From NCBI RefSeq assembly GCF_021228235.1, contig NZ_JAJQRG010000003.1:1-64000 (forward strand): 64,000 nt of DNA, written 5' to 3'. Within the stretch, counting starts at the first letter, position 1, and the number at the start of each line of letters is the position of its first letter. Both the position numbers and the translations under genes were made by a program. Shown piece by piece: positions 1,840 to 17,860 of the stretch. The DNA comes from Pseudophaeobacter flagellatus. GTDB taxonomy: Bacteria > Pseudomonadota > Alphaproteobacteria > Rhodobacterales > Rhodobacteraceae. Below the pieces are notes generated by a model, which was not told where the DNA came from, ran no database searches, and saw only the letters and a list, made by a program, of their open reading frames with translations.

Positions 1840-1969
1840 CTATCCTTGGGCTATCCCAATTTGATGGCGTGGATTCTGGCATCTGTGATGACACATGGCA
1901 ATTTTGCAGAGGTAAATTGGGGTTGTAGGTGAAGCTAGGTCAAAAATGGCCTCGTTTTCCCACTTTCGC

Positions 1970-2826: not shown

Positions 2827-2854
2827 GCAAACTCGCGGTTGTGTATTTTTTACC

Positions 2855-2903
2855 TTTAGACCCTAAATGGATTCGCCTTTTATGTCAAATTCAGACCCTA
2901 AAA
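2855..2903. repeat. AGACCCTAAA repeats upstream of the resolvase, possible res subsites
   Basis: TTTAGACCCTAAA at 2855-2867 is an inverted repeat (TTTAG/CTAAA). Its AGACCCTAAA core recurs as a direct repeat at about 2892-2902. The pair lies 30-80 bp upstream of the resolvase start, where resolvases often bind their own res site and repress themselves. The role is inferred from position only. Confidence 0.35.
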
Positions 2904-3312
2904 TTACAGCCAGTGAGCCGTCTCCGTAGTGTATCGCATGGGTAGAGCCAATCGAGACACGCGTCGCCGTGCCAGATGCCCTTTCTGCTGCAGATAGCGA
3001 CCTTTGCAAAGTCGAGTTGAGCGTCCCGTCGTCAGGAAGGCGACCGGCCCTTTGCAGTCATTCACTAGCCGGTCCGGATGCTGCAGTCACAGCCCACATT
3101 GCCGACGTTGGCCATTCCGCTGAGCTTCTTTTGGTTTTAAGTTGGCGTTTTAAGAAACAGCAATTGCTGCGTGACTTTTGTGGCTACGCCGAGTACAAAT
3201 ACTTCATGTATGACCTTTGGAAAGGTATGGTACGAAGCGCTCCAGCAAAGGCCCCATTTTGTGCAATTATTAGGATGCTGGGTCCTTGGAACCAACATTT
3301 TCGAGCAAACTC
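2904..3312. other. Intergenic stretch with no convincing gene
   Basis: About 410 bp separate the resolvase promoter region from the small gene at 3313. A 115-codon plus-strand frame (2969-3316) exists, but I see no ribosome-binding site, domain or recognisable family in it. It runs into the next gene's start. I read this stretch as decayed or regulatory DNA. Confidence 0.4.
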
Positions 3313-3609
3313 ATGAGAGACTTGGCGACAGAACCCAAGAAGGCTTACCGTCACCTCGGAAGTGAAAACGGTCAAGCCTTCATTGGTTTGGTGGCGGACT
3401 TTAGAGCAGCCATCTTTGCCGGGGATGTGCCGATGGGTCCAATTTCGGCCACCAGAGTAGAAGACGGTTTTGTGTTAGACTGGTTTGTATCCTCTGGTTG
3501 CACGCTGAAAACAGTGATAGATGCACGCGGCGCTGGGGACGAAGCATGGAAAGATTCTCATAGAATCCAGCTAAAGGCTCTAACGATTGGCGGGGAGGTA
3601 TTGGCTTAA
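3313..3609 (+). CDS. Small hypothetical protein upstream of ImmA/IrrE peptidase
   Basis: This is a 98-residue soluble protein starting at ATG 3313 (MRDLATEP). A start at 3286 is possible but adds only non-descript residues. Its stop overlaps the ATG of the next gene by one base (TAATG at 3607-3611), so the two are translationally coupled and probably work together. It has an alternating beta-rich pattern in the second half and no signal peptide. I do not recognise the family. The arrangement resembles toxin-antitoxin or regulator pairs built around HTH-ImmA proteins, and this could be the toxin or substrate partner. That is inference only. Confidence 0.6.
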   Translation: MRDLATEPKKAYRHLGSENGQAFIGLVADFRAAIFAGDVPMGPISATRVEDGFVLDWFVSSGCTLKTVIDARGAGDEAWKDSHRIQLKALTIGGEVLA

Positions 3610-4733
3610 TGTTTGAACCAAATTGGGCTTCCCCACCGGGTGACACGATCTCTCGACTGGCCACCGCAGGCAATCTGTCAGTGCACGACTTGGCTGAGCG
3701 CATAGGGTTCGAAGAAGACGTATTCTTTGGAATCATGGACGGTAGAGTCCAAATTTGCGATGAGATTGCGGACGCACTATCCAACGAACTCGGTGCATCG
3801 CGCCAGTTCTGGATCGAGCGTTACAACCAATTTCTTGATGACAAAGTGCGTATTGCCGGTTCTGCTCAAACAGAGACGCTTTCCACATGGGGGCAATCAT
3901 TTCCCGCCAAGGCGTTGCGGCAACTCGGCTGGCTGCCGAAGGGCTCTCGCGGTGAGCGGTTGTCCAGAGACATATTGGATTTTTTTGGGTGCGTCAGCAT
4001 CCAAGGTTGGAATGAACGCTACTCTTCGGGGATAGGCCAAGTTGCGTTTCGAACGTCCTTTGCGTTTGAGGCTGATGAAATGGCAACTTTGGCTTGGCTG
4101 CGCGTCGGTGAGGTTCAATCCGAAAGCTTGGCTCTCGCGAAGTTTTCTGCGAACGACTTCAAAAACCGTTTGCCTGAGTTGAAGAAGTTGTGCGCACTCA
4201 AGCGCCCTGAGTTGTTCTTTCCCAAACTTCAGCAAGCTTGCGCCGAACACGGCGTTGGTCTTGTTAGTTCGAAGGTCCCGACAGGTTGTCGAGCAAGTGG
4301 GGCCACTTGGACGTCGGCCAAGGGCAATCCTATTATTCTGCTAAGTTTCCGATATCTGAGTGAGGACCATTTCTGGTTCACCTTTTTTCACGAAGCTGCG
4401 CACGTAGTTCTTCATGGCACTGACCACATTTCGGTAGATGGCAGTGACCCGTCGCCTTTAGGTGCGTCAGCAGTAGAAGATGAAGCTGATACTTTCGCTC
4501 AAGATGCGCTTGTCGCAGCTGATCTACGAGACGAGATGCTAAATGCCATACCGACCCGTCCACATGCACGTAGGATCGCGCGAAAAGCTGGGGTGACACC
4601 GGGCATTATTGTCGGGCAGCTTCAAAAATCTGGGGCGCTCCAACCACACCAGTTTAACGATCTTAAGCGCCGGTACAAATGGGACGACAACACAATACTT
4701 CCGGTTCTTTCTCAACCCCGGAAATACACATAG
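3609..4733 (+). CDS. HTH-ImmA/IrrE metallopeptidase fusion protein
   Basis: The 374-residue protein has an N-terminal HigA/XRE-like helix-turn-helix (about residues 12-65; LSVHDLAERIGF, then the recognition-helix region). The C-terminal ImmA/IrrE zinc-peptidase domain has HEAAH at 261-265 and a downstream EDEAD (290-294) that could give the third metal ligand. ImmA-type enzymes cleave repressors to derepress mobile elements or toxins, and the fused HTH would direct the protein to its own operator. It is coupled to the 98-residue gene upstream. Its 3' end overlaps the convergent pyrophosphorylase-like gene by 22 nt. The target is unknown. Confidence 0.85.
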   Translation: MFEPNWASPPGDTISRLATAGNLSVHDLAERIGFEEDVFFGIMDGRVQICDEIADALSNELGASRQFWIERYNQFLDDKVRIAGSAQTETLSTWGQSFPAKALRQLGWLPKGSRGERLSRDILDFFGCVSIQGWNERYSSGIGQVAFRTSFAFEADEMATLAWLRVGEVQSESLALAKFSANDFKNRLPELKKLCALKRPELFFPKLQQACAEHGVGLVSSKVPTGCRASGATWTSAKGNPIILLSFRYLSEDHFWFTFFHEAAHVVLHGTDHISVDGSDPSPLGASAVEDEADTFAQDALVAADLRDEMLNAIPTRPHARRIARKAGVTPGIIVGQLQKSGALQPHQFNDLKRRYKWDDNTILPVLSQPRKYT

Positions 4734-5650
4734 GCATCCGGGCTTTTTTGCCAGTTGCAAAGGCTATCCTCAATCACCTGCTTTCCTACCCCGAGAATCT
4801 CGTCCAAGGCATCAACACGCGGCTCCAAGGCTTTACCGGTGATGCTGTGGTCTCGATTGTTGAAAAACAGAAGCCGCGCCCCAGCCAGTGGTCCTGTTGC
4901 CTTGTCCAAGTAGACGCTACCCGGCGCAATCGGAGCAAGTTGAAGCTTGCCGAGCATCGTAAGGAAATCAAACCTGCCGAGGCGACCTCCCCCAAAGCCA
5001 TACACCCCCTTCATGGATTTGTAGAGAGCATCAAAAGCCGCATGCGCCTCCTGGCCAACACTTGCATGTGTCGCGATCATTCGATCACGAAAGCCACCGA
5101 ACTCAGTCTGCCACTCGTAGTAAGTGCGAAACGTCTTGGCTATTGCGAATGGTTTCTTGCTTTGAAATTTGCGGTGGTTGGAAAAACTACCGGAATTGCT
5201 GGCGTCGGCCAAGCGGCCAGAGTTTGCTCCCAACATGTTCTCGAAGCCTGCCGGGTTCGCAGCGTATTGAGCGAATGTCCAAACAGGCCCTGCGCCGAAC
5301 GATCCATAGACATTTGCAGCCAGCTTCCATTCGTCTACCGCATGTTTACCGAAATGAGTGAGGACGAATGCTAGCCAGACCGCCTCATCGAGTTGTCCGT
5401 TGCGCTGATAGTAAAGCGACCCTCGTACGGGATCGAAAATACCAGAATTTGGATCACACCTCGCCGCGTTCACACCACGCGTCATCAGCGTGTCAGTATA
5501 GGAAATCCGACGTAGACTGGACACGATTTGTTGCGCCCAACACCGTCTCCGCTGGGCGCTCGCAATGCTGGGAAGGGGACCAAATTGGGCGCCGATGTGT
5601 CCGATTTTCTCGATAATCTCGTCCATTCTGTCTTTGTGGATGCCGTTCAT
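4712..5650 (-). CDS. Alpha-glutamyl/putrescinyl-thymine pyrophosphorylase-like protein (clade 3 type)
   Basis: This is a 312-residue soluble protein. Its core pattern near residues 223-262 (GRLGRFDFLTMLGKL, then IAPGSVYL, then ATGPLAGARLLF) matches what I recall of the clade 3 family described with hypermodified-pyrimidine pathways. Earlier landmarks are MTRGVNAARCDPN (56-68) and FGAGPVWTF (118-126). Family members are predicted to install adducts on hydroxymethylpyrimidines in DNA using a helix-hairpin-helix glycosylase-like fold. It begins 11 nt after the TS-like gene stop on the same strand, so the two form an operon. The molecular activity of this clade is not established to my knowledge. 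Confidence 0.65.
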   Translation of the reverse strand: MNGIHKDRMDEIIEKIGHIGAQFGPLPSIASAQRRRCWAQQIVSSLRRISYTDTLMTRGVNAARCDPNSGIFDPVRGSLYYQRNGQLDEAVWLAFVLTHFGKHAVDEWKLAANVYGSFGAGPVWTFAQYAANPAGFENMLGANSGRLADASNSGSFSNHRKFQSKKPFAIAKTFRTYYEWQTEFGGFRDRMIATHASVGQEAHAAFDALYKSMKGVYGFGGGRLGRFDFLTMLGKLQLAPIAPGSVYLDKATGPLAGARLLFFNNRDHSITGKALEPRVDALDEILGVGKQVIEDSLCNWQKSPDAYVYFRG

Positions 5651-5661
5651 GTACCGCTGCC

Positions 5662-6738
5662 TTAACCTACGTTCTCAAATAGATCCCTAACGGGAGCTTG
5701 TTTTCTTTCGAGCCTACCAAGAATGTAGATCCGATAAGTGGGTGAAATATCTTTCATGATCTTCACAACTCTACGTAATTCGGGCCTCTCGGTTCTAAGG
5801 CTATATCCGCGTTTCTTTATTTCCTCGAATATCTTGTGAATTCTGAAAAGCTCGATGAAGTCGTGCCAGTATGGCTCAAGATCTGTTGGAGCGGTATATT
5901 CGATGTTGCCAGATCGGATTTGTTGCTCCGCCATTTTCACCGTTTCTATGCTCGGCCATGGATCTCCTGATGGCATTTCGGGCATTGGCGAAAAATCGTG
6001 AAAACCCTCCCTGTAGTATGCTTCGGCGCCAGATGTCGATGTGTTCGCCGGGCGACCCTCAGTTTCCGCACAGTCATGGTATAGATGTAGGCTTGTCACA
6101 GAATGGGTGTACTTACCCAACCCAAAGCCAAGTTCACGAGCTGCAACCTCTTGAAGCATAGTAAATGTGAAAATGTCGTGCGGGAGGCCGAAGAAAGCAT
6201 CATTGGAACGCATATGCGTGTGCATCAACAGCTGCCCATTCCTAACCGCAAATTGAATGGTACAGGTGCAAGGCTTGTCGCCGTTCTTGGGTCTTGCATC
6301 GGAATTGGCGTAAATTTGGATCAGAGCGTTGCGCGAGCCTTCTCGCTCACGCAAAGTACGGATGACCCGATCCCACTCGCTAATTCCGTCACGTTTTTCT
6401 AGTGCCTTGTTTCCGAAAATTCGCGGTCCGTAGGCCCCGCTTGCGGTGACGTCGTCTTTTATCAGTTTTGGATAGTTGGGGATATAGTGTTTGATGAACT
6501 CGACGCTATCACTGCCCGCTAGATACCAGAAAAACTCGCCAAGTGGGCTGAAAGCTCTGGCCCTTGAGAACGACCGGCTTAACCGTGCACGGGGGTTCTT
6601 CAGTTCCAAGAGAGCACCGAAGGTTTCAGTGCTCTTGCCCTTGCTTGAGGCGACTTCAAAATTCCCACGGCCTGTGAGTAGCTGTTTGAAGACAGCTCTC
6701 ATCAGGTCGTCTAGGCTATCTTCGCTCGCGTGAAACAA
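5662..6738 (-). CDS. Thymidylate synthase-family enzyme with dCMP-type active site
   Basis: The 358-residue protein keeps the catalytic framework of thymidylate synthase: Cys157 in KPC, the phosphate/Asp motif RSND (177-180), GLP before the substrate-recognition residue, and HLY (218-220). The residue equivalent to E. coli ThyA Asn177 is Asp188 (LPHDI). That is the change known from dCMP hydroxymethylases/methylases, which use dCMP instead of dUMP. The His after the catalytic Cys is Thr, and one of the paired arginines is Asn. A TTG start at 6738 follows AGGTGAGG; a later ATG at residue 13 is possible. It heads an operon with the pyrophosphorylase-like gene. It probably makes a 5-modified pyrimidine nucleotide rather than housekeeping dTMP. 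Confidence 0.8.
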   Translation of the reverse strand: MFHASEDSLDDLMRAVFKQLLTGRGNFEVASSKGKSTETFGALLELKNPRARLSRSFSRARAFSPLGEFFWYLAGSDSVEFIKHYIPNYPKLIKDDVTASGAYGPRIFGNKALEKRDGISEWDRVIRTLREREGSRNALIQIYANSDARPKNGDKPCTCTIQFAVRNGQLLMHTHMRSNDAFFGLPHDIFTFTMLQEVAARELGFGLGKYTHSVTSLHLYHDCAETEGRPANTSTSGAEAYYREGFHDFSPMPEMPSGDPWPSIETVKMAEQQIRSGNIEYTAPTDLEPYWHDFIELFRIHKIFEEIKKRGYSLRTERPELRRVVKIMKDISPTYRIYILGRLERKQAPVRDLFENVG

Positions 6739-7142
6739 TGCTGATCAACCTCACCTTTTGGTTGATCTTCAGCATTTACGCGCGAAAGTTCAAGGGATGG
6801 ATACCAAGAGTTCCCCATTCAGGCGCAAAGACAGCAAGACCTTGGCTACGATTGCAGGCCGAAACGCTGAGCGAAATTTTGCAGCTGGGGGCAACAAGCT
6901 CGTACAGCTGTACGAAGAGGGTGCCAGCTCTTTCCAAGAATACCCGAGTCCACTATCGGGGGCGAATGGTTCTATAGAAACACCAAGTAAAATTGCAAAA
7001 ACCCTGTCACTAGGCAAAGTGGTGGGGTTTTTGCATCAGTCCTTCAACAGAAATTTGCACAAAAAACAGGACATTCTGGAAAAGGGGCAGTTTCTTGCTT
7101 ATGTCCTGCCCCCAAGAATAAATCTAAAGGAAGTCCATCCTA
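6739..7142. other. Intergenic stretch with no supported gene
   Basis: About 400 bp lie between the divergent TS-like gene and the lipoprotein gene. A 134-codon frame (6758-7162) crosses the whole interval, including a hairpin terminator, and has no recognisable domain, so I do not call it. The right part probably holds the lipoprotein promoter. Confidence 0.4.
6995..7034. terminator. Hairpin with A/T-flanked stem, terminator-like
   Basis: The arms GCAAAAACCC and GGGGTTTTTGC enclose a loop containing a further partly paired TGTCAC/GTGGTG segment. With T-runs on both strands it could stop transcription from either side. No certain gene ends directly before it. Confidence 0.5.
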
Positions 7143-7547
7143 ATGAAGGCACGTTTGGTTAAAAGCTTTGCTATTGTAACTTGCATGGGCTTACTAGCAG
7201 CATGCACTAGCCCACTTGAGCAATGTACCTCTTCTGCGTCTCAGGAATACCGGGCTCTGCAAGCCGCTGCTGTGGAGACGCAGGAAAATATCTCCCGCGG
7301 GTATGCAGTTCATAAGCAAAGGGTGCCTGAAACAGTCCCAATGACTTGCTACAGAACGGACCCATACTCTTACGCCATGATCCCATACTCATGCCCACAG
7401 ACATCGTATCGGACGCATTCTACACCGGTGGCAGTAAATGTAACCCAGGAGCGGCAAAAACTAGCCCAACTCAGGTCCGTTCTACCTTCCGCAAAAGCAA
7501 GGGCTCAAGCAGGCATTGAGCAGTGCTCAGCTAAGTATGCCTCCTAA
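7143..7547 (+). CDS. Small conserved lipoprotein
   Basis: This is a 134-residue protein with a lipoprotein signal peptide (positive KARLVK, hydrophobic core) and lipobox LLAAC, so Cys21 is predicted to be lipidated. The mature part has two short cysteine-containing segments (TCYRTDP and SCPQTSYRT). A helical tail (ERQKLAQLRS) ends in another Cys. I recall similar Tyr/Cys-rich lipoproteins in Rhodobacteraceae with no known function. The start ATG follows an AAGGAAG-like site. It sits between island genes in opposite orientation and may be a passenger. Confidence 0.7.
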   Translation: MKARLVKSFAIVTCMGLLAACTSPLEQCTSSASQEYRALQAAAVETQENISRGYAVHKQRVPETVPMTCYRTDPYSYAMIPYSCPQTSYRTHSTPVAVNVTQERQKLAQLRSVLPSAKARAQAGIEQCSAKYAS

Positions 7548-7548
7548 G

Positions 7549-7780
7549 CTAAGGGTATCGATGATGGGTTTTGAGCGCTCTTGCCGTGCGGCGTGGCGTT
7601 GGTCGGCAGGCAGGCCGCGCAGGTCTTTTTCGATGCGATAGAGTGCTTGGATTTGGGCCAGACCTTCCTGCGCAATCGGGGCAGTACTGGACTGGGTGCC
7701 TGGCGTTTTCCGTTGAATGCGGAGAACGACCAGAGTTTTCACACAGCCTTGGCTGAGCCGTGTTCTTCGACTTAATCTTT
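7549..7780 (-). mobile_element. IS66-like and other IS remnants
   Basis: On the minus strand one frame gives ALYRIEKDLRGLPADQRHA followed by a basic RQERSKP segment. This is the signature region of IS66-family transposases. To its right lie short sequences resembling IS ends. The pieces are out of frame with each other and have no start or stop context. They are debris of at least one insertion that destroyed the C-terminal half of the neighbouring integrase. Confidence 0.6.
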
Positions 7781-8481
7781 CGACTTTCCCACTTTTTCGC
7801 GCACATATAGGCGGTAAGGAGGCTGCTTATCCGGCTTCCTTGCGCAGTTTCCTGCTCAGTGTCGTCTAACCCGGCGTAGTCTGCTAAGACTGATCTGGAT
7901 CGGTCTTCAGGTTCCCGAAACTGGTTTACGAAGCGTTGGAAGTCTGGCTGTAGAAATTCGTCCGCTGCGGAACGTACGTTTTCATATTTTGCATCAAAGC
8001 TGGACAGCATAGGGGTGTTGCCCCACGCGGCCTCTTCCACAACTGCGTCGATAACGCACAAAAGCTGGCTTCTCCAAGGAGTATCGAAGCGGAACTCGTG
8101 GCGCACATTGTGAGGGCGAGCTTCACCAGCCCCGTCAGACAAAGCTTCCACAGCCGTGTCGACCAAGGTTTGCAGGATATCGTAGTAGCGTTCTTCCTTC
8201 TTCTCATTAGCGCGCTGCTTTTCAGCTAATTTTCGAGAGACTTCCTTGCGCGCCTCTACATCGAAGCTCCGGTAGATTTCCTGAGTGATGGCGTGTTGTC
8301 TGCGCTCCGCAAGATTTCGATCCGAAGTACCGGTGCTCCTGCGAATTTGCTTCTGCGTGAAGAGGTTCTCCAGCGGTTTGGGCACAGTAACGGAGACTGC
8401 GTACTTGCCCTTCACAAGGATTAATGAGCTTGGGTGGTCGTCCAAAATAGTAACCGATTTAGTGTCCAACTTAGTGTCCAC
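7770..8481 (-). pseudogene. Site-specific tyrosine integrase, truncated (catalytic domain lost)
   Basis: The N-terminal half resembles phage integrases with an arm-binding domain (about residues 18-75; VPKPLENLF, then IRRSTGTSDRNLAERR) followed by the helical core-binding region. The frame becomes non-homologous near 7790, where IS66-type debris starts. None of the R-H-R-Y catalytic motifs is present. Its start lies 51 bp from the 3' end of tRNA-Cys, reading away from it, which is the usual position for an island integrase. It is therefore the dead integrase of the island occupying the left part of the window. Confidence 0.65.
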
Positions 8482-8531
8482 TTTACGGCTATCCGCCTGT
8501 TTTACAATGATCTTAGGTGCTTGGCGTATAG

Positions 8532-8605
8532 TGGAGGCGAGTACCGGAATCGAACCGGTGTACGCGGATTTGCAATCCGCTGCGTCACCACTCCGCCAAC
8601 TCGCC
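8532..8605 (-). tRNA. tRNA-Cys (anticodon GCA)
   Basis: The minus strand folds as a complete tRNA. The acceptor arms are GGCGAGT and ACTCGCC. The anticodon stem GCGGA/TCCGC encloses loop TTGCAAA with anticodon GCA, and the T arm reads CCGGTTCGATTCCGG. The discriminator base T is followed by an encoded CCA. It is flanked by integrases on both sides and serves as an integration hot spot. Its 5' half recurs at 16904-16942. Confidence 0.97.
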
Positions 8606-8606
8606 T
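8568..8606. repeat. attL: 39-bp direct repeat within tRNA-Cys
   Basis: The 39 bases from the anticodon region to just beyond the tRNA 5' end are identical to 16904-16942. Similarity continues, diverged, for about 90 bp beyond, including GCCACACAGTCTG. This fits integration by crossover in the anticodon half, with the incoming element supplying a replacement 5' half and promoter for the tRNA. Confidence 0.85.
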
Positions 8607-8702
8607 TTTCAATGACTTAACCGTGGCGGGTGGTGTCCTGCCACACAGTCTGCCACACCTTCTATTTATGTTCCCTTTTGTTCGCAAGGGGCAAAACGAC
8701 AA

Positions 8703-9728
8703 TTAGTCTCGAAAATCTATCGATCTCAACGCATGCACTTTTTGGCGAACTGTCCTGGTGTAGTGCTGAACCATTTTGGCGCTTTGGCCGGTCACTGCGG
8801 CGATGGTTTCATCATCGGCGCCAGCCATACAAAGCTCGGTTGCAGTGGTGTGTCGGAGCGCGTGAATGTCATAGTCAACAGCATCGATCTGCTTTCGGAT
8901 CTTCATTACCGCGTCTGAGGCTCCACGGTATGACCAGGGGCCTGTAGCAAGGTGATTGGTCAGGATGAAAACGCTGCGCTTCTCTGTGGTTGCAAGCGCC
9001 GCGTTTAGATGGGTTGTGAGGGGAACCCAAAGGTCTTTCTGGGTTTTGTTCTGCCGGAGAAGGATTCCTCCATCCTCGATGTCGCCCCATTTCATCTTCA
9101 GTACATCTGCAATCCGTTGACCAGTCCCGATGCATAATTCAAAAACCAGCAGAGACCGGCCAGCGGCGGTTTTGCGATACGCGTCAATCTTGTTCTTAGG
9201 CCAGGGTTTGCGATCCTGCTTTTCGTATTTGATCGCCCGGATGCCCTTTGCCGGGTTTTCCATTTCCTTGGTGAGTAGGCCTATATCTTTTGCGTGTTCA
9301 AATAGGATTTTCAGCACAGCCAGCCGGTAGTTTGCGGCATGCGGGGTTCCCTTTTTGGCCCATGCCTCATGCCAGGTGATCACATGATGGCGCACGATGG
9401 CCTTTGGGTGCAGGTGACTGAGTTTTTCCTGAAAATATGCAATGTGCATGTCATAATCGCGCCGTGTGCGCGCAGCCAGCCCTGAGTATTTGGTGCTGGC
9501 GTAGTAGTGGCGAACGACTGCAGCTAGGTCTTTCCCAGGGGCGACGGGTGCCGGATCATTTAGGATGCGCTCGCGTTCTTGATGCAGGGAAAAGGGAACC
9601 GGCGTCCCTTCTGGAAACTGTGTTTCCAGGCGAACTTCTACAATTTTTCCGCCATATCGCTTACGGAACAAGAGCACTCCATCTCGCTTGCGACGGTGGA
9701 TGTAGGAGGGGAGTTCTTTGCCTTTCAT
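8703..9728 (-). CDS. Tyrosine-type site-specific integrase
   Basis: The 341-residue phage-type integrase has a core-binding domain (about 65-160) and a C-terminal catalytic domain. The catalytic residues are Arg205 (GTGQRIADVL), His289 and Arg292 (HALRH), and Tyr323 (QHYTR). All are present and the length is normal, so it is probably functional. It reads toward tRNA-Cys and lies about 100 bp from it, just inside the attL copy. Its ATG overlaps the stop of the upstream small gene (ATGA at 9725-9728), so the two are co-translated. It is presumed to catalyse integration and excision of the 8607-16903 element. Confidence 0.93.
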   Translation of the reverse strand: MKGKELPSYIHRRKRDGVLLFRKRYGGKIVEVRLETQFPEGTPVPFSLHQERERILNDPAPVAPGKDLAAVVRHYYASTKYSGLAARTRRDYDMHIAYFQEKLSHLHPKAIVRHHVITWHEAWAKKGTPHAANYRLAVLKILFEHAKDIGLLTKEMENPAKGIRAIKYEKQDRKPWPKNKIDAYRKTAAGRSLLVFELCIGTGQRIADVLKMKWGDIEDGGILLRQNKTQKDLWVPLTTHLNAALATTEKRSVFILTNHLATGPWSYRGASDAVMKIRKQIDAVDYDIHALRHTTATELCMAGADDETIAAVTGQSAKMVQHYTRTVRQKVHALRSIDFRD

Positions 9729-9910
9729 GGTTCCACCAAGTCTGCGGGGTTTTGAGCCTCGGCAATAGTGAGGGTGGGGTGGCTAAAGTCAAAGGTGAAT
9801 GTGCGTCCCTCTACAGTGGCTCTGAAATCATCTATCCCCTTTGCTTTTAGCTCTGCCGCATACTCGGCCAGCCGTTGAGGGGTCGTTTTGGATTTGACGG
9901 GTGTTTTCAT
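9725..9910 (-). CDS. Small protein coupled to the integrase, possible excision factor
   Basis: This is a 61-residue protein starting at ATG 9910 behind a strong GGAGGA site; an upstream in-frame start has no such site. The N-terminal half is basic and helical (TPQRLAEYAAELKAKG). The C-terminal half reads like a short beta unit (FRATVEGRTFTFDF). It overlaps the integrase start by 4 nt. Small genes coupled to integrases are often excisionases or directionality factors, but I see no clear winged-helix signature, so the role is inferred from position. Confidence 0.6.
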   Translation of the reverse strand: MKTPVKSKTTPQRLAEYAAELKAKGIDDFRATVEGRTFTFDFSHPTLTIAEAQNPADLVEP

Positions 9911-9960
9911 TTCGTTCTCCTCCTGGGGTGGTTGGCCGGGTTGACGCTTAGGTTTTGGCG

Positions 9961-10257
9961 GTGGTGGCGTTGTGGTTGCTGCTGAGAAAGCTCTTGGGGG
10001 CATCAGTTCTTCTATCCAGTGGTTGCGATTTCAGTTCACGCGGATCGCATATGCCGCCACCCAGAGTGCCGGCGGATTTGCTGCAGCCCTGCGCTGGATA
10101 CACCGGCCCGCTGCCGCAGACCGAAGGGCAGATCTCGGATGCCCTGATTGCTGAGGCGAGGGGCAGGGAATGTGCCAATGGCAAGCTGAGCGCGGTGGGT
10201 GAGATCTTGGCCGTGCCGATAGGGCACTTGGGTACAAGTAGGATGAGTTCTTCTTGA
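9961..10257 (+). pseudogene. Rz1-like outer-membrane spanin lipoprotein, probable prophage remnant
   Basis: The plus strand encodes a hydrophobic start (VVALWLLL), then LLSSGC as a possible lipobox. A mature part follows with PPRVPADLLQPC and TEGQISDALIAEARGRECAN. This pattern resembles Rz1-type o-spanins of alphaproteobacterial phages, which help disrupt the outer membrane at lysis. No ATG is available (candidate GTG at 9961 or 9964). No full-length Rz frame or other lysis gene is nearby. The 5' end also overlaps the promoter region of the small integrase-linked gene. I treat it as a leftover of the prophage that gave rise to the island. Confidence 0.45.
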
Positions 10258-10324
10258 TCTAAGGGGGCACTGACGGCTCTCTACCCAGAGTTGTTTAATT
10301 ATTCTGCAATAGTGGGGGCATTAA

Positions 10325-10498
10325 ATGGATCCGTTCAAGCGGTTAGATAAGATGATCGAAGACCTAAAGAGCTTGCAAGAGAGTCTTCGTAAACTTGAGC
10401 AAAATAAGAAGGAATGCCGTGATCTCGAGCGCCCGATAAAGAAGCGGCGGCCTCGTGGATCGCCTTGGCATCGGCTGCATCATCTTTCTGGTGTTTGA
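10325..10498 (+). CDS. Short coiled-coil ORF, probably a truncated gene
   Basis: An ATG at 10325 opens 57 codons. The first ~36 residues are strongly helical and charged with a heptad-like pattern (FKRLDKMIEDLKSLQESL, then RKLEQNKK). The rest turns into a basic, low-quality tail antisense to an IS110 fragment. This suggests a small gene cut by the IS. No family is recognisable. Confidence 0.3.
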   Translation: MDPFKRLDKMIEDLKSLQESLRKLEQNKKECRDLERPIKKRRPRGSPWHRLHHLSGV

Positions 10499-10511
10499 CA
10501 AAGCGCTTCAT
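10437..10511 (-). mobile_element. IS110-family transposase fragment
   Basis: One minus-strand frame contains RFVKHQKDDAADAKAIHEA. This matches the conserved K-(N/D)DAxDAxAI block in the N-terminal DEDD domain of IS110-type transposases. Only about 25 residues remain, without start, stop or IS ends. It is an inactive relic. Confidence 0.6.
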
Positions 10512-10638
10512 GCAGACCCACCTTGGTACACTCATGCATCGCGACTGATCCCATCACCAGAGCTAGGGAAGCGGCACGTTAACCTTTCTAAAGCCTGAGT
10601 AGTTTGTCTCGCTGGTCGCTGGCGGATACCATCGGATG

Positions 10639-11607
10639 TTAAAAATCGGACCTTAGTCGGTTACCCCTACGCGCTTGCGTGTCGAGCCATTTGCGAGGGG
10701 GCATACCCATCTTCTTGCGGAATGCGTAGGTGAAACTGCTGACACTTGCATAGCCAAGTTGGCTCGCCACTCGTTTTATTGGGGCGCCGCCAAGTATCGC
10801 GTCGCATGCGGCGTGCAGTCGGACCTGTTCGGCGCTCTGCGCCAAGGTACAGCCGAACACTTCGCGGTAGGCCAACGCTAAACGGTTGGCTGCTAGACCC
10901 AGCCGAGATGCCAGCTCTCCCAATCCGGGCGGTGTCATCGCCTCGACTTGCAGCATTGCATGGGCTTCTCGTGCAGCCTGAACCTCATGCAGCGCAATTC
11001 CGGGAGGGCTGTCGGTGGACAGGGTCTCCAGTTGATAACACAGGATTTGCAGGGCGGCGGCCTCGATCAACTGAGTGCGAAGTGGCAGACGGCTGTGCAA
11101 TGCCTGCTCGAGCGAAATTCTGAGGTAGCTGGGGAGCGGGGCCTGTGTGACAAGGGACGGTCCCCCCATCCCGTCCAAAATCCTCTGAACTGCCTTGGGG
11201 ACCTTGCCCGCAAACCAGTTCTCAACCATTTTCAATGGTGCATTTACACCAAAGATGTCGACCTCACGCCGATGCAACCGAAAGAGAGCTCCCGTATCAC
11301 GCGGGCGGATCAGCCCCACCGTGTTACTTTCGTAGAGCGCTCCGCAGGTCAACTCAGCGGCGAAGCTGCCGCCCAAAGGCACTTGGGTAAATACAAAATC
11401 TGTAGGCCGTTTGTTTGTGACTTCGACCGTATCCGGGCCGTTGGAGCGAAACCGCGTCTTAGTCCAGCCAATGCCGGTATCCGGAGCCGCTTTTGCTCGC
11501 TGAAACTCGATGTCCACCGCGTCGGTTTTTACCGTCACTGTCTCTACGCCCGATAAACAGAGTTTAACCGGTTGAGAAGCGTCAGAAGAAGATGAATCAA
11601 GAGACAT
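10639..11607 (-). CDS. AraC-family transcriptional regulator
   Basis: The 322-residue protein has an N-terminal sensor-like region (about 1-200) and a C-terminal AraC/XylS DNA-binding domain (about 215-312). The domain carries two helix-turn-helix units; the second reads IKRVASQLGYASVSSFTYAF, then RKKMGMPPRKW. The sensor half resembles the AraC-type ligand-binding domain with an arginine-rich middle, but the ligand is unknown. It is divergent from the autotransporter gene with about 320 bp between starts, so it may control it and itself. It sits inside the integrase-delimited island. Confidence 0.88.
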   Translation of the reverse strand: MSLDSSSSDASQPVKLCLSGVETVTVKTDAVDIEFQRAKAAPDTGIGWTKTRFRSNGPDTVEVTNKRPTDFVFTQVPLGGSFAAELTCGALYESNTVGLIRPRDTGALFRLHRREVDIFGVNAPLKMVENWFAGKVPKAVQRILDGMGGPSLVTQAPLPSYLRISLEQALHSRLPLRTQLIEAAALQILCYQLETLSTDSPPGIALHEVQAAREAHAMLQVEAMTPPGLGELASRLGLAANRLALAYREVFGCTLAQSAEQVRLHAACDAILGGAPIKRVASQLGYASVSSFTYAFRKKMGMPPRKWLDTQARRGNRLRSDF

Positions 11608-11924
11608 TTAGCGATAAAGATTAATAGGAACAAAGGCTAAGTATAGGCTAAGCGAACCACGCACCTCGTGCAAGAGCCGGGACAGCTTTCATGAGTACAG
11701 GCTGAGATTCGACAAAAAAAGCCGCTATCTCGACAAACACGCTCCCTACGCGACCCACCAAAATTGGATATGATTTGCCCAAGGCCGCGCATGTCGAATA
11801 CGGGCGGCCCAAAAGACAGATAATAACCGGTTCCCTCCTGATCGCGCTCTCACCGGCAGCGGCATGTTTTGGCATGCTTGCGCAGCGGCGGCGCAGGGCA
11901 AAGTGGCCGGGCGGGAGGTTGGGA
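11608..11924. other. Divergent promoter region between araC-like and autotransporter genes
   Basis: About 317 bp hold no supported gene. Open frames here are short and antisense to each other. The region must carry both divergent promoters and any AraC-type binding sites. I do not see a clear direct-repeat operator by eye. Confidence 0.4.
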
Positions 11925-14900
11925 ATGGTGACACTGATGAAAATTGCAGCGGCGGTGTGGGGCAGGCTTGAGAGTCTAACCCGCAGATCTGTGACCAAGG
12001 TTGCCGTTTGTAGCGCATTGGTTGTCGTCTCATTGTTTTGCGCCACTCAGCCAGCACAGGCGCTGGACGCCAGCGACGGGTCCCCGGCGGTCTCAATGCC
12101 GGGAGGACAGTGCTCGGCAAGGGTGCAGCAGTATGCCGGCGGTGCCAGCGTCTTCATCTTCCCCCCTGTTTCCGGTCTTAGGGCCGCCGGAGGGAGTTAT
12201 TTTAACTACGCCGACGGCGCTTCTACGCCTCATTCGCCGATCACGGTCGCGTGGTTGGAGGCGAACTGCGGCTACACGAATGTGCCGTGGCTTGTCCAAG
12301 ACGGCGCGGATGGCACAATCGCGTCTGATGATCAAATGTTCGTCCGGTTCACAGCAGATGTGCCTGGCATAGGTCGGTATGATTTTGACTACGGGCTGTA
12401 CGGGGTGACCGGCACTGTGGTGAAGCGAGATGCCGTGCTCACTGATCCTGTTCCGACCGTTACCCTTTCGGGTCTGAGCAGCACCTTTATTAATCCTCAA
12501 ACCGTCACCGCAACCTTTAGCGAGGCCGTCAGCGGTTTTGATGCATCGGACATCCAGGTGACAAACGCCACCATTTCCAGCTTCGCCGGGGCGGGTGCCA
12601 CCTATACGTTCACAGTCTCACCCGATGGGCCGGGCGCGGTAACGGTCCTTGTACCTGCAGGCGTGGCGACCGACAGTCTATCGTTCCCAAACCTTGCCTC
12701 AAATACACTTTCCGGCACGGCTGAAGGGATCAGCAGCATTACAGCGAATTTCACCGCAAACCCGGGATTCGGAGTTTCGGTGCCGCATACAGTCTTCTTC
12801 ACTGACCAATCCTCATCCACGCCATCGGCGTTGATGAGGTGGAGCTGGGACTTTGGTGACGGAGGTACCAGCACGTCACAGAACCCTATACACAGTTACA
12901 CGAGCTTTGGCTCCTATACCGCAACGCTGGAAACCTGCGTCTACACAACCTGCGACACCCAGAGCATGACCATCGAGGTGGTCGATATTCCCGCCACCAT
13001 GACCCCGTCTCTGTCAGGATTTAGCGGCCATGTGGTAGGCGCGCAGACCGTGACAGTGGAATTCAATGCGGGCGTGGATACATCAGATACGCTGCAATTA
13101 TCGGATTTTGACGCAACCAACCTGACGCTCTCAAACCTTTCGTCAGGGTCGCCGACGCCCGCATATGGCCAGACGCAGACCTACACTTTGACCGCGACGC
13201 CGGATGGGGACGGGGCCATATCGCTGACCCTGCCAGCAGGTGTGGTGTCCAACTATCGCAGCGTAGCTAACACGGCCTCCAACACGCTATCTGGTTTTGT
13301 GGACACCACTGCGCCCACCATCACGCTGGTGGATGCGGGCGCCAGCACCACCCCCTATGTCGGCTATAGTGCAGTCCTCGAATACTCACCCGGGACGATA
13401 TTTGTGCTCGGATATTCGGCATCGGTTCCGGGGACGGTCGCCCTTACGGGTAAGAGCATCCTTCCCGACAACCAGATGCGATATACGATTGTCCCGCAAC
13501 GTGATGGCCCGGTTTATGTGACCTTCCCCGCAGGGATGTTCCGGGACGTTGCCGGTAACTTCAGCGCCGAGACCCGACTCGATTTGGGGTATGCGGATGT
13601 GGACGAGCCACGACCGGAGATTACCGGTGTGCCCGCATCGGTGGGTGGTGCGTTCGAGGCAACCATCACGTTTTCCAAAACCGTCGAAGGCTTCACCGGG
13701 TCGGACATTCAGATCAGTGGCGGTACGCTCTCGTCCCTCTCGGGGAGCGGCGCGAATTATGCCGCCCGGATCACACCGGACGGCAGCGCTTCAATCACGG
13801 TTTCCGTCCCGGCAGATGCGGCACAACATATGGCGGTCGCAGGGGTGCCCGGTGTTTTCTCTGTCGCTGCGACCCCGGTGAGCACGGTCTATAACACTAC
13901 CCCGGTGGCCAATGCGGGGCCAGATCAGGTGGTACAAAGTGGCGCGCAAATCACGTTGGATGGCAGCACCAGCTCCGACCCGAATGGAGATACGCTCGCC
14001 TATCACTGGAGCGCCCCCGCAGGCATCACCTTGAGTGATGCGACGGCAGTACAGCCCAATTTTACCGCGCCTTCCCCCGCGCCAGGTGATCCCGATCAGG
14101 TGCTGTCGTTTACGTTGACGGTTGATGATGGCACTGACACGCACCAGGACACCGTCGACGTCACGGTAATGGCTCAGGTTGCCGCCACGCTCGCGGGGTT
14201 GCCGTCCAATATCGCCGGCTCCGAGACGATTACTGTCGACTTCAGCAGTGATGTCACCGGCTTTGATGAGACCGACCTGCAGCTGCAGAACCTTTCGATC
14301 AGTAACTTTGCATCAACTTCGCCAAGCTCATACCAATTTGATGTCGCTCCACTTGCGCGTGGTTCGGTCTCGATCACTCTCCCAGCTGGGGTTGCACAGG
14401 ATAGCAGAGGCAACGCTAATGTGGCGGCCTCCCTCACCGCGACAGGCTTTATCAATACCGCGCCCTTGGCAGATGCCGGAGCGGATCAGGTGGCTGGTGG
14501 CGGTGTGCTCATCACTCTGGATGGATCTGGTTCATCGGACCCAGATGGCGACAGCCTGACCTATCTTTGGACAGCGCCCGCAGGCATCACCCTGAGTGAT
14601 GCGACGGCGGCACAGTCCAGTTTTACGACACCCACTCTTTCTCTCGGTGACCCGGATCTGGTGCTGGATTTTACTCTCACCGTGGATGATGGCACTGAAA
14701 CCCACAGCGATCAGATCAGGATCACCCTTCGCACCGATGTAAGCGTGACACTTACCGGGCTGACCGATAGCTTTAGTGGTCCCGGTCAGCACCAGATCGA
14801 CATTCAGTTTTCGCGGGTGGTGAGCGGGTTGACCGCGAGCGATCTGGTGATCTCCGGCGGCGAAGTTCAGTCGCTCAGCGGAAGTGGTGCTCGTTATCAG

Positions 14901-15938
14901 GCACTATTGCTGGCCAGCGGTCGGGGCGATCTCGCGGTTTCTCTTCCTGCGGGCGTAACCCATGACAACAATGGTATTCCCAATGCAGCGTCGAACCAGA
15001 TGACTGCAGTGAACCGGATTATCGAACAGACCAGTCAGTTGATTGCCGACTTCATGCAGGCCCGTGCCAACAATCTGATCAGCAACCAGCCGCGCGTGGC
15101 TGATTTCTTGCTTGGGCGCAGCACAGGCAACCAGATGAATGCTGCCGTCACCCGTGGTCAGTTCAACATGGATATGGCAATCGCCCCGCAAGGCGGAGCA
15201 TGGGGCACCTTCCGCGCTGCCGTCAGCGAGAGCGATGGTCAAGACAGTGGCTACGCGCTTGCGACCATTGGGCGGCATATCGAGGTAAAGCCAAATCTGC
15301 TGCTGGGGGCGATGCTGCAACTGGACTATGCCGAAACCACCGAAGGCCCCGCCGAGGTCGACGGCTATGGCTGGCTGGTCGGACCATATGCGGTGTATCG
15401 CTTGCCCGATCAGCCGGTGATTTTCAGCGCGCGTATTCTTTATGGGCAATCCAACAACGATATCGCACCGCTTGGCACGTATCGCGATCAGTTCAAAACT
15501 GAACGCTGGCTCGCCCAACTCGGTATCACCGGAGAGGTCATCAGCGGGGGATGGAGCGTATTTCCCTTCCTGACGGCCAGTCATGCCCGCGATGATCAGC
15601 ATGCCTATACCGACAGCCTTGGCAACACGATCCCGGCTCAGGGAATTCAGTTGACCGGCGTGGAGTTAGGCGCAGATTTTGAATTACAACTGGCACATCA
15701 GGCTGGCCAGCGAGTTCTGACAGGAGGGGTTTCAGGAATCTGGTCAGAGACCTCAGGCTCCGGTGCTGCCGCCTTGCGCGAACCCACCTATGAAGGTGGC
15801 CGTATGCGGCTGGAACTAGGCTACGGTGGTGTCTTGACGAATGGTGGCCGGTTTCAATTCAGCGCATTCGGCGACGGGTTCGGGGCGAACGATTACTCAA
15901 GCTACGGTGTCGAGGCGAGCTATTCTTTTGTATTCTGA
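11925..15938 (+). CDS. Large autotransporter with Ig-like and PKD repeats
   Basis: The ATG at 11925 (GGGAGG 6 nt upstream) gives 1,338 residues; upstream in-frame ATGs would precede the signal peptide. An extended signal peptide ends near ATQPAQA. The passenger has bacterial Ig-like units marked by TVTFSEAV-type strands (about 168-265, 354-455, 558-655, 748-843, 938-1030). PKD units include WDFGDGG (about 288-345) and two closely related VANAGPDQ/ADAGADQ modules (655-748, 843-938). Residues from about 1088 form an autotransporter beta-barrel ending in SYSFVF with terminal Phe. The protein is likely a surface adhesin. It lies in the tRNA-Cys island beside a divergent AraC gene. Confidence 0.85.
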   Translation: MVTLMKIAAAVWGRLESLTRRSVTKVAVCSALVVVSLFCATQPAQALDASDGSPAVSMPGGQCSARVQQYAGGASVFIFPPVSGLRAAGGSYFNYADGASTPHSPITVAWLEANCGYTNVPWLVQDGADGTIASDDQMFVRFTADVPGIGRYDFDYGLYGVTGTVVKRDAVLTDPVPTVTLSGLSSTFINPQTVTATFSEAVSGFDASDIQVTNATISSFAGAGATYTFTVSPDGPGAVTVLVPAGVATDSLSFPNLASNTLSGTAEGISSITANFTANPGFGVSVPHTVFFTDQSSSTPSALMRWSWDFGDGGTSTSQNPIHSYTSFGSYTATLETCVYTTCDTQSMTIEVVDIPATMTPSLSGFSGHVVGAQTVTVEFNAGVDTSDTLQLSDFDATNLTLSNLSSGSPTPAYGQTQTYTLTATPDGDGAISLTLPAGVVSNYRSVANTASNTLSGFVDTTAPTITLVDAGASTTPYVGYSAVLEYSPGTIFVLGYSASVPGTVALTGKSILPDNQMRYTIVPQRDGPVYVTFPAGMFRDVAGNFSAETRLDLGYADVDEPRPEITGVPASVGGAFEATITFSKTVEGFTGSDIQISGGTLSSLSGSGANYAARITPDGSASITVSVPADAAQHMAVAGVPGVFSVAATPVSTVYNTTPVANAGPDQVVQSGAQITLDGSTSSDPNGDTLAYHWSAPAGITLSDATAVQPNFTAPSPAPGDPDQVLSFTLTVDDGTDTHQDTVDVTVMAQVAATLAGLPSNIAGSETITVDFSSDVTGFDETDLQLQNLSISNFASTSPSSYQFDVAPLARGSVSITLPAGVAQDSRGNANVAASLTATGFINTAPLADAGADQVAGGGVLITLDGSGSSDPDGDSLTYLWTAPAGITLSDATAAQSSFTTPTLSLGDPDLVLDFTLTVDDGTETHSDQIRITLRTDVSVTLTGLTDSFSGPGQHQIDIQFSRVVSGLTASDLVISGGEVQSLSGSGARYQALLLASGRGDLAVSLPAGVTHDNNGIPNAASNQMTAVNRIIEQTSQLIADFMQARANNLISNQPRVADFLLGRSTGNQMNAAVTRGQFNMDMAIAPQGGAWGTFRAAVSESDGQDSGYALATIGRHIEVKPNLLLGAMLQLDYAETTEGPAEVDGYGWLVGPYAVYRLPDQPVIFSARILYGQSNNDIAPLGTYRDQFKTERWLAQLGITGEVISGGWSVFPFLTASHARDDQHAYTDSLGNTIPAQGIQLTGVELGADFELQLAHQAGQRVLTGGVSGIWSETSGSGAAALREPTYEGGRMRLELGYGGVLTNGGRFQFSAFGDGFGANDYSSYGVEASYSFVF

Positions 15939-16400
15939 CAAAGGCACAAAACGAATAACGAGCAATTGGGAAGGGACGAAGCTGAATATGCTGTTTTCGC
16001 CTCGTTTAAACAAGGAAAGAGCAATCTTTTATCTGTGTAATCCGCTTCTCGCGACGATCATTCTCACAACGTCCTGGTAAGGCTTGCTTGGTGCTTGGCT
16101 CCGCATAGGCAATGGGGTGCGTTCGCACCTGCAGCAAATTTACACTGTCCGTCCCACTTTCGGTTCATGCTCAGCCATACATCTACAGAACCAATGTCGC
16201 GAAAAGGGCTGTGACCGGCCATCTACCGCGCCTGGTACCAAGGTCGGCTGAGGGCTGGTAGCAGTCATCCGCAAGCGAGATGGATCCGCGCTACCCTGGT
16301 AGACTGCTCGCAACGGCAGCTCTGCGCAGAGAGCGGAATTTGCAATTTCCTGCAAAGCACACTGGACCTGTCCCGTTTTTGTGCCGCCCCAGACGCCCAT
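15939..16400. other. Gene-poor stretch after the autotransporter
   Basis: About 460 bp hold no gene I can support. There is a small GGTGCG/CGCACC inverted repeat at 16116-16129 with a 2-nt loop. No clear intrinsic terminator follows the autotransporter. Frames on both strands are short and lack ribosome-binding sites. The right end abuts an IS relic, so the stretch is likely mobile-element debris. Confidence 0.35.
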
Positions 16401-16436
16401 TTAAGCCACCTTTCGTTCGAATGCGGTAGGGCTTTT
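16401..16436 (-). mobile_element. Tail of an IS3-type transposase (relic)
   Basis: The minus strand reads SPTAFERKVA followed by a stop, bounded upstream by another stop. This resembles the extreme C-terminus of IS3-family OrfB proteins. The following ACAAAAACGGGACAGG could be the IS end. The piece is very short, so the call is tentative. Confidence 0.35.
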
Positions 16437-16451
16437 CTATTTGGGGGTGGG

Positions 16452-16652
16452 CTACTTCTTAACTTCGACTAAGATGTCAGCTAGGGCGAGAAATATAAGA
16501 CAGAATGCACCTATAGCAAGGTTCGGGTCCAAATTCCTGTCCGAGCCTGCATAGCGCCTTACGGCGTCGTCCGTCGCAAATAGCTTTACCGCTGCATTTG
16601 AGCTGGCAAGTATTATTCCAAGCCAGCCAACGGCTCTCAATACAGAAACCAA
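16452..16652 (-). CDS. Small two-helix membrane protein
   Basis: This is a 66-residue frame with a TTG start behind AAGGA at 8 nt. It has two hydrophobic segments (AVGWLGIILASSNAAV and LAIGAFCLIFLALADILV) separated by a charged loop (TDDAVRRYAGSDRN). The composition is gene-like, but I do not recognise a family. It is the last candidate gene before the right attachment site. Confidence 0.45.
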   Translation of the reverse strand: MVSVLRAVGWLGIILASSNAAVKLFATDDAVRRYAGSDRNLDPNLAIGAFCLIFLALADILVEVKK

Positions 16653-17107
16653 AGTAAAAGTTCCTTTTTCAGATCGACAGAACCCTGGTCACAGCCCTGA
16701 TGTGGGTTGGGGCAGAGTCTGTTGCTCGCGATAGTACATCTATATTTGGTAAGTTTGTAACTTGAAGGACGGACTGAGCAATATCGCACTTCTTTTTTGT
16801 TTTGGGAGTGAAGATTGCTTGACACACATTCTCGTTTAGTTCCCGATGTGTCCCACAGGCGGTACGCACAAAAAAGTGTTTTAATTCAATGGGGAGAATT
16901 CGAATTTGCAATCCGCTGCGTCACCACTCCGCCAACTCGCCTCTTTTGACCTGGTCTGTGGCACGTGGTGTTCTGCCACACAGTCTGCGACATCTTCTAT
17001 TTAGGTTCGGTTGCCTTCGCAAGGGTCAAAGTGACATAGAACCTTGAAAAAACGAGGTGTCAATTTTGGATGTTTCGGGGCGCAAAACTTCGGGTGCTGG
17101 GGCTGCG
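16653..17107. other. Right end of the island and flank, no gene
   Basis: About 455 bp contain the partial tRNA-Cys copy (16904-16942) and its diverged flank up to about 17040, then the region downstream of the chelatase gene. No supported coding sequence is present. Confidence 0.5.
16904..16942. repeat. attR: partial tRNA-Cys copy, 39-bp direct repeat
   Basis: This is identical to 8568-8606 and represents the tRNA 5' half from the anticodon loop outward, with no 3' half adjoining. The downstream flank resembles that of the intact tRNA at a lower level (shared GCCACACAGTCTG and CTTCTATTTA). This is best read as the original chromosomal 5' half displaced by integration. It sets the right boundary of the element. 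Confidence 0.85.
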
Positions 17108-17860
17108 TCAGGCGCGCCTAATGGCCTCGGCGATGAGCTGTGCGATCTTGGGGGCGGTGCCGAGGGCAGGCAGCAGTCTGCCTTCAAACTTGGCCTTGGT
17201 GAGGGCGGCGGGAATGTCCTGTGTGACGTGGTCGCCAGATTGGGCAAAGAACGGCAGGCAGAGGCTTTGAGCGGGCAATCTTTTCGCTACATCAGACAGA
17301 TAAGGGGGCTGTTCAATATAGCTTGTTACCAGCTCCAGGCCGGGCAGCAGGGGGCGCAGTGCGGTGGCAAAGCGTTCGGTGGCTGCCGACGCCTTGGGGC
17401 CGTGGGCCGATCCATGGGCGGCAAGCAGCAGGCTGTCTTGGGCAGTGTGGTTTTCTGCTGCCGCGGTCTGGGCGGCCAGGGCCTGTCGGACCATGCTTGC
17501 CACGAGTTCTGGCAGGGCTGGGTCTTGACCAAATGGCGGCAACTGGCGGTGCTCAAGACCGTTCAGCCGCTGTGGCAGAACCTTGGTGGTGAACCAGCCG
17601 TCAGCCATGAAAAAGGGATAGACCAGAGCGCCCCGCCGCATCACCTGCTCCAGGCGGTCGGGCTGCGCTAGGGTCGCGGAGCGGACCTCCCAGCCGGGCA
17701 GGAACCGGGAAACCTGCGCTGCCAGCTGGGCCAGGGCGCGCTCGGGGGGCTCTGGGGCAGAGGGTTGGCCATGTGCCACGATTACCACCGTTTTGGTCGC
17801 ACCGTTGGCTGTGCTCGCCTGCAGGGGCTGGTCTGCTGGAGTGCGAGGAGAAGGAGGCAT
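17108..17860 (-). CDS. CbiX-like sirohydrochlorin chelatase
   Basis: The 250-residue protein is built from two homologous chelatase halves. The first begins with VVIVAHGQPSAP (about 25-36) and the second with LLLAAHGSAHGP (about 142-153). The His of each HG motif is a candidate metal or substrate ligand. Such class II chelatases insert Co2+ or Fe2+ into sirohydrochlorin for cobalamin or siroheme. The C-terminal ALGTAPKIAQLIAEAI helix is typical. No cob/cys genes adjoin, so the metal cannot be assigned. An alternative start slightly downstream is possible because the first 20 residues are Pro/Thr-rich. It is the first backbone gene right of the island. Confidence 0.8.
   Translation of the reverse strand: MPPSPRTPADQPLQASTANGATKTVVIVAHGQPSAPEPPERALAQLAAQVSRFLPGWEVRSATLAQPDRLEQVMRRGALVYPFFMADGWFTTKVLPQRLNGLEHRQLPPFGQDPALPELVASMVRQALAAQTAAAENHTAQDSLLLAAHGSAHGPKASAATERFATALRPLLPGLELVTSYIEQPPYLSDVAKRLPAQSLCLPFFAQSGDHVTQDIPAALTKAKFEGRLLPALGTAPKIAQLIAEAIRRA

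Follow-up and report, generated by a model that had tools for sequence, protein, structure and literature searches.

An integrative element at the tRNA-Cys gene of Pseudophaeobacter flagellatus and its probable donation of a promoter and tRNA 5′ half

In the parts of the Islander account of Hudson, Lau and Williams drawn on here, 159 of 3919 islands (~4%) carry a 5′ tRNA fragment and 3760 a 3′ fragment, and crossover in the anticodon loop forms one class of attachment (att) site (PMC4383910). The subject of this study is an insertion of the 5′ kind, an 8.3-kb integrative element beside the tRNA-Cys gene of the marine bacterium Pseudophaeobacter flagellatus (assembly GCF_021228235.1, contig NZ_JAJQRG010000003.1, positions 1 to 64,000; this 64,000-nucleotide stretch, at the beginning of contig 22 in a genome of 4.29 Mb, is hereafter called the window). 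We conclude that it is very probably a tRNA-targeting element that recombines in the anticodon loop, and that its integrase-proximal arm donates a promoter, a leader and the 5′ half to the single tRNA-Cys gene. A preliminary description of this DNA had called the orientation less usual than 3′-end integration, and the Islander proportions, in the parts of that account cited, agree.

Islander islands with a 5′ fragment share with the window an intact tRNA gene, a cognate fragment in the same orientation upstream of it and an internal integrase; the account gives, in those parts, only their number, whereas here promoter replacement, scars and both polarities of one integrase family were traced (PMC4383910). 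According to the relevant sections of a review, 5′-half sites are unique within archaea to pTN3-like integrases, whose integration places the recombinant tRNA under the integrase promoter, an arrangement that bacteria seldom show (PMC8371274). The pTN3-like integrases of Thermococcales likewise use the 5′ half of a tRNA gene as chromosomal attachment site (attB), but pTN3 integration splits its own integrase gene, whereas the window integrase is whole and ends before the att site (PMC8371274, PMC5495485, both as excerpted); its intact open reading frame (ORF) of 341 aa sets it apart from the suicidal pTN3-like type. Another solution for an essential single-copy tRNA target is the tRNA-dependent lysogeny of actinobacteriophages, where, in the portion of the source cited, the phage supplies a complete tRNA gene and, unlike the window element, does not rebuild its target (PMC10865867). 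The tRNA targets of high- and medium-quality prophages in a Rhodobacteraceae survey do not, in the excerpt cited, include Cys (PMC8224337). Insertion with a donated 5′ half is therefore a known minority kind, since islands with 5′ fragments have been reported (PMC4383910, in part). For the bipolar integrase family and the promoter scars we found no published precedent, as no report of polarity switching or of element-borne tRNA promoters appeared in the literature searched, mostly outside subscription journals and by title and abstract opening.

Boundaries of the element and the tRNA-Cys site in the genus

ARAGORN identified one tRNA-Cys(GCA) gene in the window, the sole full copy in the genome, and the element extends from it to a displaced 5′ half (Table 1). 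As had been described, identical 39-bp copies mark the two ends (8568–8606 and 16904–16942, exact), and each consists of one base of 5′ flank plus tRNA positions 1–38, covering the 5′ strand of the acceptor stem, the D arm, the 5′ strand of the anticodon stem and the anticodon loop; the repeat had been correctly read as anticodon loop and 5′ half. A whole-genome search with the 26-bp core, at up to three mismatches, found two places only, both of them att copies, and a chance origin of the repeats is therefore excluded. The repeat sits within a 45-nt match at 96% identity, and past it the flanks (8623–8715 vs 16958–17050) were 78% alike over 93 bp. The reported extension of this likeness into the upstream flank thus stood, but the flank of the displaced copy is element-type and not of the native type seen in the relative G008 (below).

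Table 1. Features at and around the tRNA-Cys element (positions in the window)
Feature	Position	Strand	Basis or remark
DUF6538-type integrase remnant, 3′ side of tRNA, separate island	7549–8481	−	Pfam
tRNA-Cys(GCA), only full copy in genome	8532–8605	−	5′ half now probably element-supplied, 3′ half chromosomal
att repeat, integrase end	8568–8606	−	1 bp of flank plus tRNA positions 1–38
Integrase-proximal arm (promoter-like motif, arm repeats, leader), probably donated together with the 5′ half	8606–8702	−	Arm comparison
Two arm-type repeats TGTGGCAG, 12 bp apart (8638–8645, 8650–8657)	8638–8657	−	Putative integrase arm sites
Promoter-like TTGCGA (8682–8687), 17-nt spacer, TAGAAG (8659–8664)	8659–8687	−	Motif picked after viewing arms
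Tyrosine integrase, 341 aa, stop ~100 bp from tRNA	8703–9728	−	PF00589
Small ORF overlapping integrase start	9725–10003	−	No family match
AraC-type regulator, cargo	10639–11607	−	Family match
Large frame with Big_12 and PKD domains, probable surface protein, cargo	11775–15938	+	Pfam
Displaced 5′ half of tRNA-Cys, far end, identical 39 bp	16904–16942	−	Repeat comparison
Element-type upstream DNA beside displaced half, probable scar of an earlier 5′-donor	16943–17050	−	Sequence comparison; integrase remains not searched for
CbiX-family gene, right chromosomal flank common to relatives	17108–17860	−	Pfam and relatives

The arrangement is that of an island under the Islander definition: one end holds the intact tRNA gene, and the other a cognate fragment that points the same way. 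The fragment lies upstream of the tRNA gene, which begins at 8605 on the minus strand, the integrase is internal and the length falls within 2–200 kb. An intact tyrosine integrase had been noted at the left end, and its frame is indeed open (PF00589, E 8.6e-20). The gene is co-directional with tRNA-Cys and reads towards it. R205, K228, H289, R292 and Y323 were invariant among 12 aligned integrases (the window's and 11 relatives, some partial); we take these to be the residues usually counted as catalytic, and the R-K-H-R-Y set is that of a tyrosine recombinase. A later His position is Gln (TGQS) in the window integrase and several relatives.

The locus was compared across 12 genomes of the genus (G000 to G011, the window genome being G000). 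Each had one tRNA-Cys match, which spanned the full gene except in G004, where it covered positions 1–54 at the end of a contig. Extra 5′ fragments (1–41 to 1–47) occurred only in G000, G002 and G005, where kilobases of DNA separate the two tRNA copies, and extra 3′ fragments (from 27–31 to 72–74) in G003, G006, G007 and G008. The 5′ fragments thus stop at 41–47 (38 for the exact window repeat) and the 3′ fragments begin at 27–31; the block common to both is the anticodon loop, which puts the site in the anticodon-loop (A) class. Sublocations were reportedly described by Williams in 2002.

A different element occupies the same site in the same polarity in G005, in the order CbiX, 5′ half, ~20.8 kb, integrase and full tRNA, with an integrase frame that spans the C-terminal part only. 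The empty site that the preliminary description had suggested looking for was found in G008, empty on its 5′ side, where CbiX lies 194 bp from an intact tRNA-Cys without a 5′-half copy; no genome among the 12 lacked an element yet kept both copies. In G010 an integrase remnant with a stop codon, 91.5% identical over 142 residues, lies between CbiX and tRNA-Cys. The 5′-half copy and full tRNA-Cys of G002 (L072:4174–13952) are oppositely oriented, that is, inverted; by eye, the intervening DNA holds a set of type I restriction genes, and a phage-tail-like ORF adjoins the integrase remnant. This locus was considered as natural proof of att-mediated inversion and rejected, as the apparent restriction genes intervene and a second breakpoint was not found.

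Arm geometry and polarity in the integrase family

Relatives of the integrase were taken as the best 80 of 198 from 84,980 species genomes, plus one from a viral scan, giving 81 loci, a set biased towards the window's near kin because only the best 80 were kept; some loci repeat genus genomes (L113 is G008, L120 is G010). The integrase lay upstream of and co-directional with the tRNA gene in 9 of the 81 loci and converged on the tRNA 3′ end in 48, while in 6 the tRNA was on the integrase N-terminal side and in 18 no tRNA lay within 1.5 kb. The gene adjoining the integrase 3′ end was tRNA-Cys in 54 of 57 cases. Members of this family donate the 3′ half as well, again at the anticodon loop used in the window. 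The 3′-donor tRNA-Cys integrases of Rhodobacterales (e.g. L113, L114 and L028) share with the window's the family (42–44% identity), the loop, a 12-bp repeat spacing and a similar distance to the loop, and differ in the half donated, in converging on the tRNA and in a promoter motif described below.

The fragment half mostly agreed with the position of the integrase. A 3′ fragment lay within the locus at 23 of the 48 3′-side loci (L144 had a 5′ fragment as well), and 6 of 9 further 3′-side genomes searched had one, with none in G306 and G320. Five of 8 5′-side genomes searched had a 5′ fragment of tRNA-Cys, on the contig of the tRNA only in G301 and G310; a sixth, that of L166, had a 5′ fragment of tRNA-Sec within the locus, and the genome search found no 5′ fragment in G309 or G312. 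The tRNA-Cys of Celeribacter naphthalenivorans (G310, contig 5, L162) has a 5′ fragment ~37 kb to one side and a 3′ fragment ~19 kb to the other. Weak matches to positions 3–42 were also seen in G313 and G315, whose loci have no assigned class.

The arms, defined as the segment of up to 180 bp between integrase stop and tRNA, numbered 60 (11 5′-donor, 49 3′-donor). In 56 of the 60, a pair of 8-mers matching at 7 or more of 8 positions was spaced by exactly 12 bp, compared with 14 of 6000 shuffled arms, and other periods from 8 to 24 were each found in at most 2 arms. From the second repeat to the centre of the loop the distance was 73–75, 97–100 or 119 bp in 5′ arms (9 of 11 with the pair) and 75–76 or 96–98 bp in 3′ arms (47 of 49), except for a 5′ value of 200 in L162, a chance pair, and one 3′ arm without the TTGCAA reference; the steps of ~22 bp equal two helical turns. 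The TGTGGCAG pair of the window was also present in the close 3′-donors L106, L109 and L165, and in L105 beside a 3′ fragment. Such pairs are probable arm sites to which the integrase would bind. By eye, AATCAANNNNTTR, a putative IHF-like site, adjoins the acceptor stem in several arms.

A promoter-like motif was associated with polarity. The strict form TTGCNN-N17-TANANN was found in 9 of 11 5′-donor arms vs 0 of 49 3′-donor arms, where shuffles expect 0.1 and 0.4; a looser form occurred in 9 of 11 5′ and 7 of 49 3′ arms (shuffles 1.5 and 12.4). The difference between classes carries more weight than the count does, since the motif was picked after reading the arms and related arms are not independent.

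How often polarity changed was estimated from integrase trees, with subsets chosen after the first tree and several 5′ sequences being long branches. The tree of 92 sequences (10 5′, 69 3′, 13 unlabelled) needs at least 6 changes, of which well-supported branches force only 1. With 39 sequences 6 changes were required (bootstrap 5–6) and supported branches force 2. The 5′-donor L166 (4170–4212), at a tRNA-Sec of Paracoccus mutanolyticus, lies outside the window's branch, and a single origin of the 5′ class including it was rejected by the approximately unbiased (AU) test (p = 1.6e-9 with 39 sequences, far below 0.001 with 24). The 24-sequence set, without long branches and with L166 included, required 4 changes. 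For the window's clade alone, with six 5′ sequences among 23, 3 changes were counted and a single origin was not rejected (p = 0.144). At least two polarity changes are thus supported, and more are likely.

These observations suggest the following mechanism. The integrase would carry out the insertion by binding the arm repeats and crossing over within the 7-nt anticodon loop of the single tRNA-Cys gene, the attachment site of the element (attP) setting the integrase-proximal arm beside a copy of the gene's 5′ half. After integration the element-borne promoter, leader and 5′ half would be joined to the chromosomal 3′ half, with the promoter-like motif presumably driving tRNA-Cys, and the old 5′ half would be displaced 8.3 kb away; the element may also excise as a circle. 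After decay of the displaced half the host would rely on the promoter of the element, and this would account for the element remains that are still present upstream of tRNA-Cys in most of the 12 genus genomes. The arm, from the repeats to the core, was most likely captured from a host flank, with capture of a 3′ flank giving the common class and capture of a 5′ flank with its promoter the rare one. The proposal in the preliminary description that a replacement 5′ half and promoter are donated is supported by the empty site of G008, the second occupant in G005 and the distribution of the motif over the arms; use of the promoter is predicted from sequence.

Promoter scars and alternative explanations

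Comparison of 18 upstream regions distinguished two kinds in the genus. The element type was common to both copies in the window, both copies in G005 and the full copies of G001, G002, G007, G009 and G010; the native type was seen in G008 and beside the displaced half of G002, which scored 78 against each other (24 for the best shuffled pair). With G003, G004 and G011 added, the element type was found in 10 of the 12 genomes, the others being G006 and G008. Integrase sequence lay directly upstream in 8 of these 10 (search of 700 bp, cut-off E 0.001), as an intact gene in the window and as a partial gene or remnant in G001, G002, G005, G007, G009, G010 and G011. The same search detected no remnant in G003 (E 0.20) or G004 (0.14), values no better than that of G006 (0.11). 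Since a displaced 5′ half is kept only in G000, G002 and G005, the other 7 element-type genomes look like scars.

In the window and these 7 scars (G002, G005 and the displaced window copy were left out), mean pairwise identity was 100% for the −35 hexamer, 92% for the −10 hexamer, 96% for the second arm repeat with its neighbour, 76% for the first arm repeat, 68% for the rest of the leader and 52% for integrase codons. These figures are most simply explained if the promoter was retained by the hosts while the integrase decayed. The second arm repeat with ACACCAC is 96% identical in scars (e.g. L079, L081, L088) although the integrase is dead, and this conservation suggests that it has a function in the leader or start region of the tRNA. 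As the displaced copies of the window and G005 are also element-type, each of these promoters was probably replaced at least twice.

We lean towards a broader account of the family. Its integrases would read their own arm (two repeats 12 bp apart, placed ~75, 97 or 119 bp away from the crossover, so that successive positions differ by two helical turns) whichever tRNA half lies there. Polarity could then reverse through exchange of the captured host flank, and the TTGCAA palindrome of the tRNA-Cys anticodon loop may help in this. Donation of a 5′ half would require a carried promoter and leave an irremovable scar, and in most genus genomes the only tRNA-Cys would be transcribed from the promoter of a mobile element, in some of them after two rounds of replacement. 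The palindrome was rejected as sole cause of switching; it would work only given a 6-bp overlap centred on TTGCAA, and the tRNA-Sec loop of the 5′-donor L166 has no such palindrome.

The element-type region might instead be the genus's native tRNA-Cys promoter, captured by elements, so that integration returns a host-like promoter. Its presence in 10 of 12 genomes and beside the displaced copies of G000 and G005 would fit, as would the ACACCAC stretch of element arms, seen by eye upstream in other genera too, and the two element-type genomes without a detected remnant. We nevertheless consider this unlikely: an integrase gene or C-terminal remnant directly adjoins 8 of the 10 element-type regions, the TGTGGCAG pair lies beside integrase genes of both polarities in other genera, and the displaced copy of G002 and G008 have a different, native-type region in common. 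That the repeats arose by ordinary duplication or homologous rearrangement at tRNA-Cys, with the integrase a bystander, is very improbable. Rearrangement does occur at the locus, as the full tRNA and integrase remnant of G002 are inverted relative to the displaced half; the pairing of integrase side with fragment half, however, recurs across genera, and the fragments end in or beside the anticodon loop. A third possibility concerns origin and is compatible with promoter donation by an integrative element, namely that the element was once part of a larger phage and lost its structural genes. Over the tree columns, a relative's integrase (L101, in an element of ~37.7 kb) does not differ from one carried by a 34-kb IMG/VR contig, and the phage-tail-like ORF of G002 points the same way; set against this, both ends of the window element are intact and a scan of 8 proteins, 7 from within the element, gave no structural PHROG match. 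A decayed prophage is possible, though doubtful.

Several observations weigh against donation of promoter and 5′ half as we describe it. No excisionase was identified in the element and no transfer genes in the element ORFs scanned. G010 (L120) has a remnant without a 5′ fragment, L132 and L176 are 5′-side loci without one in their genomes, and in G299, G302 and G304 the 5′ fragment is on another contig than the tRNA and may not bound the same element. On the 3′ side, G303 had only a weak match to positions 3–42 (88%). The strict promoter motif is absent from L102 and L166, and both motif and repeat unit were chosen post hoc from arms some of which are near-copies (e.g. those of the window and L120).

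Cargo, neighbouring DNA and meaning

The small ORF overlapping the integrase start had no family match (Pfam over the whole ORF; PHROGs and NCBIfam over 9728–9910). It was considered as an excisionase and rejected, with no family match and one weak tblastn match (E 0.11) in 87 related loci. The Big_12/PKD frame (1387 codons) probably encodes a surface protein, and 9 of the 11 other genus genomes, all but G006 and G010, had matches to it with E no higher than 1e-20, chiefly in the C-terminal part. By eye a short ORF (10335–10535, minus strand) resembles part of an IS110-type transposase; it had no family match. The 7 element proteins scanned gave no structural match of a prophage and the 6 element ORFs scanned no relaxase or conjugation Pfam match of an integrative conjugative element. 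G+C content was 55.9% in the element, 60.0% in 17108–40000 and 51.4% in 1–8531.

On the other side of the tRNA, the DUF6538-type integrase remnant lies 50 bp from the tRNA-Cys 3′ end. A 61.5%-identical homologue is at the same place in G001, paired with a copy of the tRNA 3′ end (57–74) ~10.5 kb away, and a second kind of island thus appears to use the other end of tRNA-Cys. Further left (1–6738) a cysteine-desulfurase-like gene with a broken end, a resolvase-like gene and a helix-turn-helix plus ImmA-like gene were seen by eye, and a thymidylate-synthase family gene (Pfam) lies at 5662–6738.

Insertion with a 3′ fragment, the great majority of islands, leaves the host tRNA promoter in place. 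Comparable elements of both polarities, together with their scars, show what follows when the promoter of an essential single-copy tRNA is taken over, and the same comparison shows an integrase reversing polarity while its arm geometry stays. The rarity of 5′ donation becomes testable, as a question of whether carrying a working promoter sets the cost. In this genus, our data suggest that such insertions repeatedly took over the switch of the essential tRNA-Cys gene.

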